Shown in pieces: positions 35,851-44,807 of a stretch of DNA of 64,000 bases; position 1 is the stretch's first letter; each line of letters starts with the position of its first letter. This DNA is from Bacteroidaceae bacterium. Its GTDB lineage: Bacteria; Bacteroidota; Bacteroidia; Bacteroidales; Bacteroidaceae. A model generated the notes under the pieces. The model saw only the letters and a program-made list of their open reading frames with translations. It was not told the DNA's origin and did not search any database. The DNA lies in NCBI GenBank assembly GCA_017427065.1, contig JAFRTL010000021.1, positions 49,576-113,575 on the forward strand, written 5' to 3'. The translations under genes were made by a program, and so were the position numbers.

Positions 35851-35882
35851 CAAAGTTAATGAACGCTGAATAAATATGCAAG
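35851..35882 (-). promoter_or_regulatory. Promoter of ald
   Basis: Minus-strand TAACTTTG (35851-35858), 20-base spacer and a CTTG -33 (35879-35882). Confidence 0.6.
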
Positions 35883-35950: not shown

Positions 35951-36562
35951 ATGAATACATCTCCTATAGATACCTTGAGGTCTTTTTTCTGCCAGATGAT
36001 GCCACTGAATGCCAATGAGGTGGCGCTGGTGGAGCAATGCTTTAATCCCAGTACCTACAAGCGCCGTGAACTGCTGCTTAGGGCTGGAGAGCATTGCAGG
36101 CATTATATGTTCGTGGTGCAGGGTTGCCTTCGAATGTACAGCGAAGACGACAAGGGAGACCGCCACATCATCAAGTTTGCCCCAGAAGGGACATGGATGA
36201 CAGATATAGACAGTTTCTTCCACAGAAAACCCTCACGTCTTTTCATTGATGCGCTGGAGCCTACTACAGTGATGCAGACGGAATTGGAGCCTTTGGTTTC
36301 TTCGTTCACACACTCATGGAGGCTGTCTAACATTTTCCGCGTGTTGGCAGAGAATGAACTGGCATTGCTGCAACAGCGCCACTTGGAGACACTCAGTTCC
36401 ACAGCAGAAGAGCGCTATCAGACGTTCTGTGATACCTATCCACAACTGATGAATCGCATCTCGCAGTCGCAGATAGCAGCCTACTTGGGTGTAAGCCCAG
36501 AGTTCCTGAGTCGTATGAAAAGTAAATTACTAAGACATCCGAAGGATGTTTTCTTGACATAG
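35951..36562 (+). CDS. Crp/Fnr family transcriptional regulator
   Basis: A 203-residue regulator with an N-terminal cyclic-nucleotide-binding-type beta-roll (YKRRELLLRAGEHCRHYMFV, then KFAPEGTWMTD) and a C-terminal winged helix. The recognition helix SPEFLSRMKS has the E184-x-x-S187-R188 pattern that in Fnr reads TTGA half sites. Start choice: an ATG at 35936 lies only about ten bases below the likely -7 box TATCTTTA (35919-35926), so 35951 is preferred. No clear iron-sulphur cysteine cluster is visible. A TTGAC-N4-GTCAA palindrome overlaps its stop codon, upstream of the next gene. The ligand is unknown. Confidence 0.82.
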   Translation: MNTSPIDTLRSFFCQMMPLNANEVALVEQCFNPSTYKRRELLLRAGEHCRHYMFVVQGCLRMYSEDDKGDRHIIKFAPEGTWMTDIDSFFHRKPSRLFIDALEPTTVMQTELEPLVSSFTHSWRLSNIFRVLAENELALLQQRHLETLSSTAEERYQTFCDTYPQLMNRISQSQIAAYLGVSPEFLSRMKSKLLRHPKDVFLT

Positions 36563-36568
36563 GTCAAG
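36553..36568. promoter_or_regulatory. Fnr-like palindrome (candidate Crp/Fnr operator)
   Basis: CTTGAC-ATAG-GTCAAG is a perfect 6-4-6 inverted repeat; its core has the same 5-4-5 geometry as the Fnr box TTGAT-N4-ATCAA. Its centre lies about 43 bases before the likely transcription start of the phosphatase gene, the usual distance for a class II activator. Confidence 0.55.
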
Positions 36569-36590: not shown

Positions 36591-36598
36591 TACCTTTG
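36591..36598 (+). promoter_or_regulatory. -7 box of the phosphatase-like gene
   Basis: TACCTTTG matches TAnnTTTG exactly. There is no TTTG about 20 bases upstream, which would fit a promoter dependent on an activator bound at 36553-36568. Confidence 0.6.
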
Positions 36599-36620: not shown

Positions 36621-37865
36621 ATGAACAGAAGAGATACCTTGAAATTACTGGGTAGCCTGCCTTTGATGGCTTTTGGTGCTACTCGCGTGAATGCAAGTGA
36701 GCATCAGATCACCAAGACTGGTGCTCAGAACCCAAAGAACATCGTGCTGATATCGGCTGATGGTATGGGTGTGTGCCAATGGCAGGCTGGTATGGTAGCC
36801 GCCAAGGGAAAGATGAACCTAAGTCGTATGCAGAGCGCTGGATTGCTGACGACAAATCCTCTCGATGTGTTCTGCGGAGATGCACCTTCACACAGCACGG
36901 CACTGGCTACAGGCGTGAACAGCCATAAGGGTGCCGTGAGCGTGGACATGGATAATAAGCCTCTGAAGACTATCACGGAGCTGGTGAAGGAGAAGGGATT
37001 AGCCATGGGCATCGTCTCTGCCAATTCGCTGGTGGAGGGTAGCATAGTGCCCTTCGTGGGGCATGCTCAGAATCGAATGGCTGTAGAGGCGCTGACGGCT
37101 GGATATGTGGATACAAACATCGACGTGTTCATCGGTGCTGGCAGCGACTACTTCACTAAGAGCATTCAAGGAGGCTTCGGCCCTGGTCCAGGTGCTGGCG
37201 GTGGCCAGGGTGGTCCTGGTGCTGCTGCAGGCGGACAGCGTCCAGCTGGTGGTCAAGGCGGTCCTGGTGCTGGCGGAGCGGTGCAGATGGGAGAGCGTAC
37301 GGACAAGCGTAACCTCATCAACGAATTGAAGGCCAAGGGGTATCAGGTCTGCAACTCCATTGATGAAATCAAGCAAGTGAAGGGTGGCAAGTTGGCAGGG
37401 TTCACTGGAGCACAATCGAATCCCAACATACAGGAGGGTCGAGGTGATATGTTCCCTGCTTCTGTGGAAACGGCATTGAATGTACTGAATAGCGGCTCCA
37501 AGGGCTTCTTCCTCATGGTGGGCGACATGTACGTGGACCGTGCCTCTCACAACGGTAGGTTGGAGCTGCTCTGTGATGAAACAAAGGACTTGGATCGTGC
37601 CATCGGTAAGGCACTCGACTTTGCAGAGCATGACGGACAGACATTGGTCTTGGTGGTAGGCAGTCCAGAAGCCTCTGGCATGAGCATCGTGGGTGGCAAT
37701 ATGGCTGAGGGTACGGTGGAAGCCAAGTGGTCGATGCCAGGCATGGCCAACCACTCGGGTACTCAAGTCCCCATGTTCGCCTATGGTCCAGGTGCAGAGC
37801 AATTCATGGGTGTGATGGAAAATACCGAAATATTCACCGTCGTGAAACAGATGATGATTGGCTGA
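36621..37865 (+). CDS. Alkaline phosphatase superfamily protein, probably catalytically inactive
   Basis: A 414-residue exported protein (NRRDTLKLLGSLPLMAFGA leader) with the alkaline phosphatase fold pattern: SADGMG (D47), a DAPSHSTALATG block (87-98), VDRASH (305-310) and NHSGTQVPMFAYGPGA (377-392). Aligned by eye to E. coli PhoA, the nucleophile Ser102 is Ala88, and metal ligands Glu322, Asp369 and His370 are Gly301, Ser348 and Pro349. Asp51, Asp327, His331 and His412 equivalents remain. A Gly/Pro/Gln-rich insert fills residues 184-222. ATG 36621 follows a TACCTTTG box by 22 bases. It may be a binding protein or an enzyme with altered chemistry. Confidence 0.8.
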   Translation: MNRRDTLKLLGSLPLMAFGATRVNASEHQITKTGAQNPKNIVLISADGMGVCQWQAGMVAAKGKMNLSRMQSAGLLTTNPLDVFCGDAPSHSTALATGVNSHKGAVSVDMDNKPLKTITELVKEKGLAMGIVSANSLVEGSIVPFVGHAQNRMAVEALTAGYVDTNIDVFIGAGSDYFTKSIQGGFGPGPGAGGGQGGPGAAAGGQRPAGGQGGPGAGGAVQMGERTDKRNLINELKAKGYQVCNSIDEIKQVKGGKLAGFTGAQSNPNIQEGRGDMFPASVETALNVLNSGSKGFFLMVGDMYVDRASHNGRLELLCDETKDLDRAIGKALDFAEHDGQTLVLVVGSPEASGMSIVGGNMAEGTVEAKWSMPGMANHSGTQVPMFAYGPGAEQFMGVMENTEIFTVVKQMMIG

Positions 37866-37885: not shown

Positions 37886-37920
37886 CAAGGGAGCACGTGA
37901 AGTGCCCCCTTGTTTTTTTT
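37886..37920 (+). terminator. Terminator of the phosphatase-like gene
   Basis: CAAGGGAGCAC and GTGCCCCCTTG form an imperfect stem followed by nine or more T. Confidence 0.75.
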
Positions 37921-37963
37921 TGTAACTCCTAAGCATTTTTAAATCAATTGCTATATCCCTTCT

Positions 37964-41475: not shown

Positions 41476-43125
41476 ATGAAAGTAAAGAAGATTCTATTGG
41501 CAGCGCTGATAGCGCTGATGGCAGTGGGCAACGCTCCTGCTTGCACTAACCTTATCGTGGGAAAGAAAGCATCGGTAGATGGATCGACCATCATTTCTTA
41601 TTCTGCCGACTCCTATGGCATGTATGGTTTCCTCTATCATGCTGAGGCAGGTATGCATGAGAAAGACGAGATGGTGAAGATTTACGAGTGGGATACTGGA
41701 AAGTATCTGGGAGAAATACCACAGGCTCGCCAGACATACAACGTTATCGGTAACATGAACGAGTACCAAGTGGCTATCGGAGAAACCACTTTTGGCGGTC
41801 GTGAGGAACTGGTAGACCCAACTGCTCTTATCGACTACGGAAGTTTGATTTATTTAGCTTTGCAGCGTGCCCGTACGGCTCGTGAAGCCATTAAGGTGAT
41901 GACCGACTTAGTCAAAGAATATGGTTACTATAGTGAAGGTGAATCCTTTACCATTGCCGATCCTAATGAGGTGTGGATCATGGAAATGATAGGTAAGGGA
42001 CCTGGAGTGACTGGTGCCGTTTGGGTGGCAGTCCGCATTCCTGATGATTGCATAGCCGCACATGCCAATCAGAGTCGTATCCATCAGTTTGATTTAAATG
42101 ACAAGGAGAATGTGATGTACTCTCCTGATGTGATTTCTTTTGCTCGTGAGAAAGGCTACTTCGATGGATTGAATAAGGATTTTAGCTTTGCTGATGCATA
42201 CAATCCACTAGACTTCAGCGGATTACGCTTCTGTGAGGCCCGTGTGTGGAGCTACTATAACATGTTTACCGACCGTGGAAATGAGTTTTTACCTTATATT
42301 CAGGGTGAAACTAAGACTCCGATGCCACTCTATGTAAAGCCAAACCGCAAGATATCTGTACAAGATATCCAGAATGCCATGCGTGACCATTACGAAGGCA
42401 CTCCTTTGGATATCAGTCAGGATTTCGGAGCTGGTGCATATCATACGCCTTATCGAATCACTCCACTGAGTTTCGAAGTGAATGGAGAAAAATACTTCAA
42501 TGAGCGGCCTATCTCTACACAGCAGTCGGCATGGGTCTTCGTGGCACAGATGCGTGAGAATTTGCCCGATGCTATCGGTGGTGTATTTTGGTTTGGTACA
42601 GACGATGCCAATATGACCGTCTTTGTTCCTATCTACTGCTGCACAGACTTAGTTCCTCCTTGCTTCGATGAACATATCGATGGAGCAGGGGCTGAGTCCT
42701 TTTCATTCAACTCCTCTTTTTGGGTTAATAACTGGATTGCCAATATGGTCTATCCACGTTATGATCTGATGATAGATGACGTAAGGGCTACCCAGACTGA
42801 ACTGGAGAACTCTTTCCGTGATGCTCAAGCAGGTATTGAGGCGACAGCTAGCCGATTGGCAGAGACAGACCTTGCGCAGGCTAAGACGTTCCTGACCAAT
42901 TACTCTAACATGTCTGCACAGAGTTATATCAGCACATGGCAGAAGTTGGGCCAGTACTTGGTTGTGAAGTATAACGATACAGCGGTGAAGCGTATGGGTA
43001 AGCGTGGCATGGTAGGTAAAGATGTGGATGAAAGTAAGATCGTGTTCCGTCCTGGCTATCCAAAAGAGTGGGCTGAAGAGTATGTGAAGCAGACAGGAAA
43101 CCGGTATAAGTATCCTGCTGAATAG
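41476..43125 (+). CDS. C69 family dipeptidase, copy 1
   Basis: A 549-residue Ntn-type dipeptidase. The signal-like N-terminus (1-22) is followed directly by Cys23 in ACTNLIVGKKASVDGS, the processed nucleophile of family C69 (PepD). The TFGGREE, GESFTIADPNEVWIMEM and VAVRIPDDCIAAHANQSRI blocks also match. It probably releases amino acids from dipeptides in the periplasm. It lies 33 bases after the M23 gene and 29 bases before a close paralogue, so the three may form one operon devoted to peptide breakdown. Confidence 0.9.
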   Translation: MKVKKILLAALIALMAVGNAPACTNLIVGKKASVDGSTIISYSADSYGMYGFLYHAEAGMHEKDEMVKIYEWDTGKYLGEIPQARQTYNVIGNMNEYQVAIGETTFGGREELVDPTALIDYGSLIYLALQRARTAREAIKVMTDLVKEYGYYSEGESFTIADPNEVWIMEMIGKGPGVTGAVWVAVRIPDDCIAAHANQSRIHQFDLNDKENVMYSPDVISFAREKGYFDGLNKDFSFADAYNPLDFSGLRFCEARVWSYYNMFTDRGNEFLPYIQGETKTPMPLYVKPNRKISVQDIQNAMRDHYEGTPLDISQDFGAGAYHTPYRITPLSFEVNGEKYFNERPISTQQSAWVFVAQMRENLPDAIGGVFWFGTDDANMTVFVPIYCCTDLVPPCFDEHIDGAGAESFSFNSSFWVNNWIANMVYPRYDLMIDDVRATQTELENSFRDAQAGIEATASRLAETDLAQAKTFLTNYSNMSAQSYISTWQKLGQYLVVKYNDTAVKRMGKRGMVGKDVDESKIVFRPGYPKEWAEEYVKQTGNRYKYPAE

Positions 43126-43154
43126 AAATCCGCTTATTTAATAACAGAAATACA

Positions 43155-44807
43155 ATGAAAGCAAAAGTAATGATTCTTGTTGCTACGATGCTTATGGCAA
43201 CTGTAGCACCCGCATTGGCTTGCACGGACTTGCTGGTGGGTAAGAAAGCCTCTGTAGATGGCTCTGTGTTTGTATCTTATTCCTGCGATGGCTATGGTGG
43301 CTTTGGCACCTTGTTCCATCAACCAAGAGGTATGCATCAGGCTGGCGATCAAGCTATGCTGATGGGTTTCGGCTCTGGTAGTCGTGGAAACCGCAGTATA
43401 CCACAGGTGGCAGAGACCTATAACGTGGTGGGTAATATGAATGAGTACCAACTCACCATCACGGAGAGTACATTCGACGGACGTACCGAACTGGTAAACC
43501 GTGAGGGACTCTTCGACTATGCCAGTTTGATTTACCTCACTTTGGCACGTACTAAGACGGCTCGTGAAGCTATCAAGACGATGACAGACTTGGTGGCAGA
43601 GTATGGCTATAACAGTACGGGTGAGTCTTTCTTCATCTGCGACCCTAATGAGGCATGGATCATGGAGATGATAGGCAAGGGACCAGATAAAAAGGGGGCT
43701 GTTTGGGTAGCGGTACGTATTCCAGACGATTGCATCTCTGCCCATGCTAATCAGAGTCGTATTCACAAGTTTGCCCTTAATGATCCGCAGAACTGTCTCT
43801 ATGCGTCAGATGTGATTTCTCTGGCTCGTGAGAAGGGTTACTATACTGGCAAGGATGAGGATTTCAGTTTCTCAAAGGCATACAATCCTATCGACTTCAG
43901 TGGCCGTCGTTTCTGCGAGGCTCGTGTATGGAGTTTCTACAACAAGTACACGGACATTGGTGACCAATACTTGAAGTATGTGTTGGGTGAGAGCGACGAA
44001 CCTCTGCCTTTGTATGTGAAGCCAAATCGTAAGCTCTCTGTACAGGATGTGAAGGATGCCATGCGCGATCATTATGAGGGCACTCCATTGGATCCATCCC
44101 TTGACGTCAGCGCTGGTCCTTATCATACACCATATCGTCCTGTGCCATTGACCTATGAGGTAGATGGTCAGACTTACTTCAATGAGCGTATGATAGGCAC
44201 GCCGCAGTCGGCTTGGGTATTTGTGGCACAGATGCGTAGCTGGTTGCCAAATGCCATTGGTGGCGTGAACTGGTGGGGCACTGACGATGCTACCATGACC
44301 GTCTTCGTACCTCTCTATTGCTGTATGGACATTGTTCCAGAATGCTTCCGCAGTGGTACTGGTGGAGCTAATATCCGCTCTTTTTCATGGGATTCTTCTT
44401 TCTGGGTGAACAACTGGGTGGCCAACATGGTGTATCCTCGCTACGGATTGATGATAGGTGATGTGAAGGCTGTGCAGCATGACATTGAGAATGGTTTCAA
44501 CGAAGCACAAGCGGGTATCGATGCTGCTGCAGCAGAAATGTTGAAGACGGATGAGGCTAAGGCTCGCGAATTCCTAACCAACTATTCCAACATGGCTGCT
44601 AAGATGTACATGGATACGTGGAAGCAATTGGGCGAATACTTGGTGGTGAAGTACAACGACATGGTAGTACAGCGTATGGACAATACCCACTATGTGGGCC
44701 ACTCCATCAGCAACGAGGGCTATGTGAATCGTCCGGGTATTCCTGCCGACTTTGCTAAGGAAATGGCGAAGCTCACAGGCGATCGCTATAAACAACCTTC
44801 TGAATAA
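43155..44807 (+). CDS. C69 family dipeptidase, copy 2
   Basis: A 550-residue paralogue of the upstream gene, nearly identical in length and colinear throughout. Cys23 in ACTDLLVGKKASVDGS is conserved, as are GESFFICDPNEAWIMEM, VAVRIPDDCISAHANQSRI and the C-terminal NYSNM-A repeat region. The early part differs most (SCDGYGGFGTLFHQPRGMH), which may alter substrate choice. Tandem duplication is the simplest origin. No terminator lies between the two copies. Confidence 0.9.
   Translation: MKAKVMILVATMLMATVAPALACTDLLVGKKASVDGSVFVSYSCDGYGGFGTLFHQPRGMHQAGDQAMLMGFGSGSRGNRSIPQVAETYNVVGNMNEYQLTITESTFDGRTELVNREGLFDYASLIYLTLARTKTAREAIKTMTDLVAEYGYNSTGESFFICDPNEAWIMEMIGKGPDKKGAVWVAVRIPDDCISAHANQSRIHKFALNDPQNCLYASDVISLAREKGYYTGKDEDFSFSKAYNPIDFSGRRFCEARVWSFYNKYTDIGDQYLKYVLGESDEPLPLYVKPNRKLSVQDVKDAMRDHYEGTPLDPSLDVSAGPYHTPYRPVPLTYEVDGQTYFNERMIGTPQSAWVFVAQMRSWLPNAIGGVNWWGTDDATMTVFVPLYCCMDIVPECFRSGTGGANIRSFSWDSSFWVNNWVANMVYPRYGLMIGDVKAVQHDIENGFNEAQAGIDAAAAEMLKTDEAKAREFLTNYSNMAAKMYMDTWKQLGEYLVVKYNDMVVQRMDNTHYVGHSISNEGYVNRPGIPADFAKEMAKLTGDRYKQPSE

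Follow-up and report, generated by a model that had tools for sequence, protein, structure and literature searches.

A conserved Bacteroidales family of alkaline phosphatase homologues without the catalytic nucleophile

Introduction

What can an alkaline phosphatase (AP) still do once its nucleophile is gone? The question is raised by a gene in a 64,000-nucleotide stretch of Bacteroidaceae DNA (contig JAFRTL010000021.1; 'the window'), which encodes an AP-family protein that has neither the nucleophile nor the Mg glutamate and has lost two of the Zn2 ligands. AP is a textbook enzyme, and a lineage in which selection keeps one functional part of the site and replaces the other would show, by an experiment of nature, which parts bind and which catalyse. 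We asked whether these losses are shared by other proteins, whether they are under selection, and what function would fit them.

The gene and its product

The gene occupies 36621..37865 on the plus strand as an intact 414-codon frame opening with ATG at 36621, just as an earlier note made from the sequence had read it. Its 414-aa product is an AP-family member by homology, matching Pfam Alk_phosphatase (PF00245) with an E-value of 9.4e-41 and 140.6 bits against a curated cut-off of 24.4. In a phmmer search the best solved relatives were structures of TAB5 AP (2w5x, E 8.8e-46), which was again the nearest solved relative when we searched with a profile of the 11 full-length proteins of the same kind described below (1.1e-59). 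The sole NCBIfam model matched was PhoA, whose cut-off is 540 bits; the protein scored 103.7. A terminator-like hairpin followed by a T run (37886..37921, plus strand, z -5.06) lies 3' of the gene, which therefore probably forms a single-gene transcription unit. This hairpin was missed, probably owing to an internal mismatch, by a simple scan for sigma-70 promoters and terminators, whose counts were at chance level.

The active site lacks the nucleophile, two Zn2 ligands and the Mg glutamate

To place the active-site residues we used three alignments, which agreed: phmmer to TAB5 AP, MAFFT of the 11 variant proteins with 63 AP homologues, and hhalign of the variant profile against 16 of those 63 (E 4.6e-91). 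The 63 are top-scoring matches freed of duplicates and of rows shorter than 300 aa, not a random sample. The hhalign result was free of gaps over residues 31-179 and from the end of a Gly-rich insert to about residue 372, with a three-residue insertion just ahead of His378. E. coli PhoA residue numbers are tied to columns through the alignments.

Ala88 falls at PhoA Ser102, Gly301 at Glu322, Ser348 at Asp369 and Pro349 at His370 in all three, so the placements that the note had made by eye hold. The substituted nucleophile loop reads D87-A-P-S-H91 (36879..36893), with His91 where APs mostly have Gly; G301-D-M-Y-V-D306-R-A-S-H310 (37521..37550) has lost the Mg Glu and retains the Zn1 Asp and His; S348-P349-E350 (37662..37670) has lost the Zn2 Asp and His; and His378 (37752..37754), all on the plus strand, is a retained Zn1 ligand. 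The window protein thus keeps Asp47 (PhoA Asp51), Asp87 (Asp101), Arg152 (Arg166), Asp306 (Asp327), His310 (His331) and His378 (His412), and has Ser141 at Thr155 and Glu139 at Asp153.

The earlier note had proposed looking for the same substitutions in homologues, and they recur in all 11 full-length members. The nucleophile column is Ala in 11/11 and Ser in 63/63 APs; the Glu322 column is Gly in six and Ser in five; the Asp369 column is Ser in ten and Thr in one; and the His370 column is Pro throughout. Ser102, Glu322, Asp369 and His370 are present in every one of the 63 APs, among which the exceptions were one with Glu at the His331 column (L082) and one truncated ahead of Asp51 (L028). Asp51, Asp101, Arg166, Asp327, His331 and His412 are retained in all 11 variants, which carry Ser at Thr155 and Glu at Asp153. 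Compared with an AP enzyme, then, the variants have no Ser or Thr at the nucleophile position, retain Asp51 alone of the Zn2 ligands (Asp51, Asp369, His370), have an incomplete Mg site (Asp51, Thr155, Glu322), and by sequence have the full set of Zn1 ligands (Asp327, His331, His412), as the note had described for the one protein. Because Ala88, Ser or Thr348 and Pro349 recur together in all 11, the set of losses is not a chance one. A twelfth member, split in two, has GDAPSH in its N-terminal piece and SPE, as in the rest of the clade, in its C-terminal piece.

A structure-based alignment with Ser90 or Ser92 at the nucleophile position and compensating metal ligands was among the findings that, according to the note, would overturn its reading. 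Sequence does not support such a placement, and on that basis we rejected it: the block around the site is gapless in both MAFFT and hhalign, Ser90 falls at nucleophile +2, and the Ser92 column has Cys both in the sister clade and in the homologue from another genus (L038).

A conserved family in a small group of Bacteroidales

The variant protein is a conserved family in a small group of Bacteroidales rather than a one-off. In the same genus, 155 of 158 genomes gave a match at E<=0.001, and 11 of the 158 hold the variant: the window's own genome, four relatives with 74-84% identity, another five with 59-60% identity, and a genome in which it is split across two contigs. The remaining same-genus matches were weaker and belonged to the AP family; 19 were fetched, and their sites were intact where compared. 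Among 399 genomes of the family, 20 matched at E<=1e-40, and with all 20 loci fetched the variant type was found only in the own genome and in one of another genus (G227, locus L038, 49% identity), where it occurs in one of six genomes. At the level of the order, 76 of 393 genomes matched, and 29/29 loci fetched besides that of the own genome show the residues typical of APs wherever the variants have lost them (four positions). The motif pattern was found among 247 class-level genomes in the own genome only, no match at E<=1e-50 appeared in 378 genomes of a large genus of the family (a search run without a positive control), and the variant was not found in viral contigs. Matches were present in 100 plasmid records, each below 60% identity and matched by overall similarity, not by active-site residues. 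At least one carrier comes from sheep rumen, and the window's own genome also encodes an AP with an intact site.

Selection on the altered site

In a tree of the 11 variant rows and 62 APs, built by a quick method with SH-aLRT as its only support, the variants formed one clade (support 100) on a stem 1.37 changes per column long; its sister group is unsure because the branches leading to L038 and to the outgroup are long. We estimated dN/dS for nine pairs, all within sub-clades and with signal and insert excluded, and obtained 0.038-0.085 in eight, with dS large and often saturated; the ninth gave no dS. All four Ala codons are in use at position 88 and all four Pro codons at 349, while Ser348 uses both Ser codon families and is Thr in one row. 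The single clade, the low dN/dS and this synonymous drift at the substituted residues fit what the note had suggested, either a pseudoenzyme that is being maintained or an enzyme whose chemistry is new. That the gene is a decaying pseudogene or an assembly artefact has a negligible chance of being right, given eleven intact full-length frames from separate assemblies and dN/dS below 0.1; we found no point in its favour.

Constraint extends to the replaced positions. Seventy columns are fixed (>=95%) in APs; the variants retain the AP residue in 46 of these, 37 being invariant among the variants, and differ in 24. Of these 24, 12 are invariant for the new residue, against 69/259 other columns (Fisher p 0.017). 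In segments hand-chosen around the catalytic motifs, 50/83 columns are invariant, against 68/246 outside (p 1.3e-7). Since the 11 rows are related, both p values are indicative only. Residues fixed in 11/11 variants and present in fewer than 6% of the 63 APs are G86, A88, P89, S90, H91, N135, E139, G140, S141, M303, R307, S309, G347, P349, A351, S352 and W370. Conservation thus reaches even the replaced columns of the active site, the pattern of a site that is rebuilt rather than abandoned or decaying.

Such strong constraint on substituted columns (17 fixed residues; 50 of the 83 motif columns) favours our main rival explanation, new chemistry, in which the protein would be a hydrolase, lyase or transferase with one zinc or with a newly built pair of metals, with attack by metal-bound water or by the newly fixed His91, Ser90 or Glu139 in place of Ser102. 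The single constant new His is suggestive. However, position 302 is Asp or Ser depending on sub-clade, no new His, Asp or Glu has appeared at 301, 348 or 349, and Ala in place of the nucleophile is not known to us from any enzyme of the AP superfamily. On balance we think new chemistry unlikely, although it deserves more weight than any other rival.

The same data bear on a pseudoenzyme with a structural or partner-binding role, whose metal and pocket would do no more than stabilise the fold. Retention of the Zn1 ligands fits that idea, as does a low-complexity Gly/Pro/Gln-rich loop (about residues 181-224; 37161..37292, plus strand) present in 10/10 full-length members of the genus; but this insert is absent from L038, from the other genus, and the constraint is concentrated at the former active site. 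We consider this role improbable.

Predicted Tat export

The window protein begins with a twin-arginine type signal of about 26 aa, MNRRDTLK... (36621..36698, plus strand). The motif RRx[ST]LK is found in all 11 full-length variants, and even a looser RR motif is absent from all 67 AP rows, which include a few duplicates. A cruder count of any RR within the first 12 residues gave 10/11 variants and 2/63 APs, the one failing variant having an over-long called start. TatC is encoded in the own genome, and with motif and translocase both present we infer that the family is exported by Tat. The Tat route usually carries proteins already folded with their metal, so the retained Zn1 site fits with such export.

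A Crp/Fnr-type neighbour and a palindrome over its stop codon

Two sub-clades are distinguished, A (with the window) and B. In 5/5 clade-A genomes the gene directly upstream encodes a Crp/Fnr-family regulator with a cNMP_binding domain (in the window 35951..36562, plus strand, with the start set by comparison with relatives; the listed frame opens at 35876), and among 157 genomes searched at E<=1e-30 the regulator was found in exactly those five. Over its stop codon lies the palindrome TTGACATAGGTCAA (36554..36567, plus strand), presumably Fnr/Crp-like, of which the left half-site is coding and the right half is not. A palindrome of the form TTGAC(A/C)TAGGTCAA lies across the regulator stop codon in all five genomes. 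The Bacteroidales -7 consensus is TAnnTTTG, and an element of this type, TACCTTTG (36591..36598, plus strand), follows 23 bp after the palindrome. The distance from palindrome to TAnnTTTG is exactly 23 bp in 5/5 clade-A genomes, so that each has what is expected of a Crp/Fnr promoter, a palindrome at a fixed promoter distance beside the regulator gene. It is the length of this spacer that is kept and not its letters, just 11-12 of 23 being identical between L001/L005 and the other three; because the L001 and L005 spacers are identical, these are fewer than five independent cases of the spacing. We take the centre of the palindrome to lie about 42 bp before the likely transcription start, an arrangement that would resemble a class-II Crp/Fnr promoter.

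The 64-kb window contains a single exact match to TTGAC-N4-GTCAA (0.07 expected; a match arose in 7 of 100 shuffles), and so does the own genome (83% complete), compared with two sites there for a reversed control pattern; the argument is its position and not its rarity. Four relatives have 3, 9, 4 and 3 sites, against 0, 2, 2 and 0 for the control; from these counts in the own genome and four relatives a wider regulon is not evident. In clade B the regulator was not found in the search of 157 genomes, nor was the palindrome within 260 bases upstream at the five loci looked at. The earlier note had suggested that the neighbouring regulator may control the gene. This idea gains indirect support from the co-occurrence in 5 of 157 genomes, the adjacency in all five and the fixed distance from palindrome to promoter, and we regard the regulator as a putative activator of the AP-like gene.

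Between the window and one clade-A relative (L088) the rates of change differ sharply, the regulators being 97% identical, the AP-like proteins 78% and the products of the next gene (an S15 peptidase) 76%.

Neighbouring genes

Beyond the regulator, the neighbours hint at uptake, and in one case at phosphate, and are inconsistent across the family. In clade A, the genes flanking L088 are common to the window, and the other three loci match none of eight other window proteins tested. One of the five clade-A genomes has a Na/Pi cotransporter gene beside the regulator/AP pair. This gene (L090:364-2322, minus strand) encodes a Na+/Pi cotransporter with a PhoU domain and a C-terminal OmpR-type Trans_reg_C domain (5.6e-22), to our eye an unusual fusion of transporter and regulator. 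Among the six clade-B genomes, the AP-like gene is followed by a SusC/SusD-type gene pair (TonB-dependent receptor) in 4/6 and preceded by an M13 peptidase gene in 5/6, with domain searches run on L095 and the other loci judged by listed protein ends. A TonB-dependent receptor is also encoded two genes after L038. The SusC-like gene at L091:3233-5938 (minus strand) is apparently in two frames, and is in a single frame in L092, L094 and L095. A CobW-type GTPase gene (L093:7294-8379, minus strand), of a family that includes metal chaperones, lies directly upstream of the AP-like gene at this locus and at no other clade-B locus read. Further along the window, 41476-44807 holds a tandem pair of homologous genes, each of about 550 aa, which we take to be C69-type dipeptidases.

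Discussion

What does a site do with its nucleophile, two Zn2 ligands and Mg glutamate replaced and the remainder under selection? In the accessible part of PMC3699461, PhoA S102A and S102G bind Pi so tightly that no significant release occurs in 100 h (limit 2e-7 per second), and the title of a supplement ascribes their activity to likely wild-type contamination. As far as the accessible part of PMC4438272 goes, removal of Glu322 and Mg from PhoA lowers activity 88,000-fold, and Asp101, Arg166 and Asp153 form a separate functional unit. The variants have lost Ser102 and Glu322 and kept the Zn1 ligands and the Asp101/Arg166/Asp153 unit (with Glu for Asp153), which is why we favour a binder. 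To the proposal that the family consists of Tat-exported, mono-zinc, non-catalytic proteins binding an oxyanion or phosphoester in a Zn-dependent manner we give about an even chance.

The protein would be an envelope protein derived from AP and exported by Tat. It has lost the machinery for forming and activating the nucleophile (Ser102 with two Zn2 ligands and the Mg glutamate) and has kept the part that holds the phosphoryl group and the leaving oxygen, namely the Zn1 site Asp306/His310/His378, with the Asp101-Arg166-Asp153 unit kept as Asp87-Arg152-Glu139. It may bind a phosphate ester, phosphate or a similar oxyanion through zinc, without turnover, so as to capture it, sense it or pass it on to an uptake system. 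In sub-clade A, the Crp/Fnr-type neighbour would bind TTGAC-N4-GTCAA and switch the AP-like gene on. The sequence with its losses, the clade, the selection, the export motif, the co-occurrence and the site spacing are observed; export, metal content, ligand, absence of turnover and activation are the parts of this account that we infer.

Several points weigh on it. The tight Pi binding of S102A PhoA was determined on protein that had both its zinc sites; with two Zn2 ligands lost, the variants need not share the extreme affinity of such mutants, and theirs could be far lower. A catalytic site could include newly fixed residues such as His91 and Arg307. Neighbouring genes vary by sub-clade, the regulator and box are absent in clade B, and a phosphate-transport neighbour is a single case. 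The retained Arg166 unit and Zn1 ligands would also suit a slow phosphomonoesterase using water at Zn1. Loss of Glu322 and Mg alone costs PhoA 88,000-fold (PMC4438272, accessible part), and here the nucleophile and two Zn2 ligands are gone as well, so that we judge such an enzyme very unlikely.

The binding proposal can be taken further, to a natural 'phosphate trap': an AP that evolution has deprived of its nucleophile, like the S102A PhoA mutant with its extreme Pi affinity, and that acts as an exported binder or sensor, paired in one branch with a one-gene Crp/Fnr-type activator. This fuller version is doubtful; if true, it would be an undescribed system for oxyanion or phosphoester capture in Bacteroidales. 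In that branch, regulator, palindrome and target gene make up a small, directly testable genetic unit. Since profile annotation scores the variants as alkaline phosphatase, surveys of phosphate cycling would miscount them.

Among known systems, DUF1501 (PF07394) comprises AP-clan proteins with twin-arginine signals, possibly exported and of unclear activity; three variants gave no PF07394 match at E<=10, which places them outside it. No natural AP-family pseudoenzyme was recognised from titles and the beginnings of abstracts among the open-access matches listed, and the words 'inactive', 'lacks' and 'Bacteroid' are absent from the accessible part of PMC11677397. The APs of about 380 aa in the same genus (e.g., L020 and L023) share the Pfam family with the variants and join their clade in the tree (support 89, on long branches), but have intact nucleophile and metal positions and no twin-arginine motif. 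TAB5 AP (PDB 2iuc, 2w5v, 2w5x; PF00245) has in common with the variants the family by sequence, the Zn1 ligands and the Arg166 unit; unlike it, the variants have neither the nucleophile nor the Mg Glu, have lost two Zn2 ligands, and carry a twin-arginine signal and the Gly-rich insert. The E. coli PhoA mutants S102A and S102G, as described in the accessible part of PMC3699461, resemble the variants in the Ala at the nucleophile position and the kept Arg166, but retain the Zn2 and Mg ligands that in the variants have been replaced.
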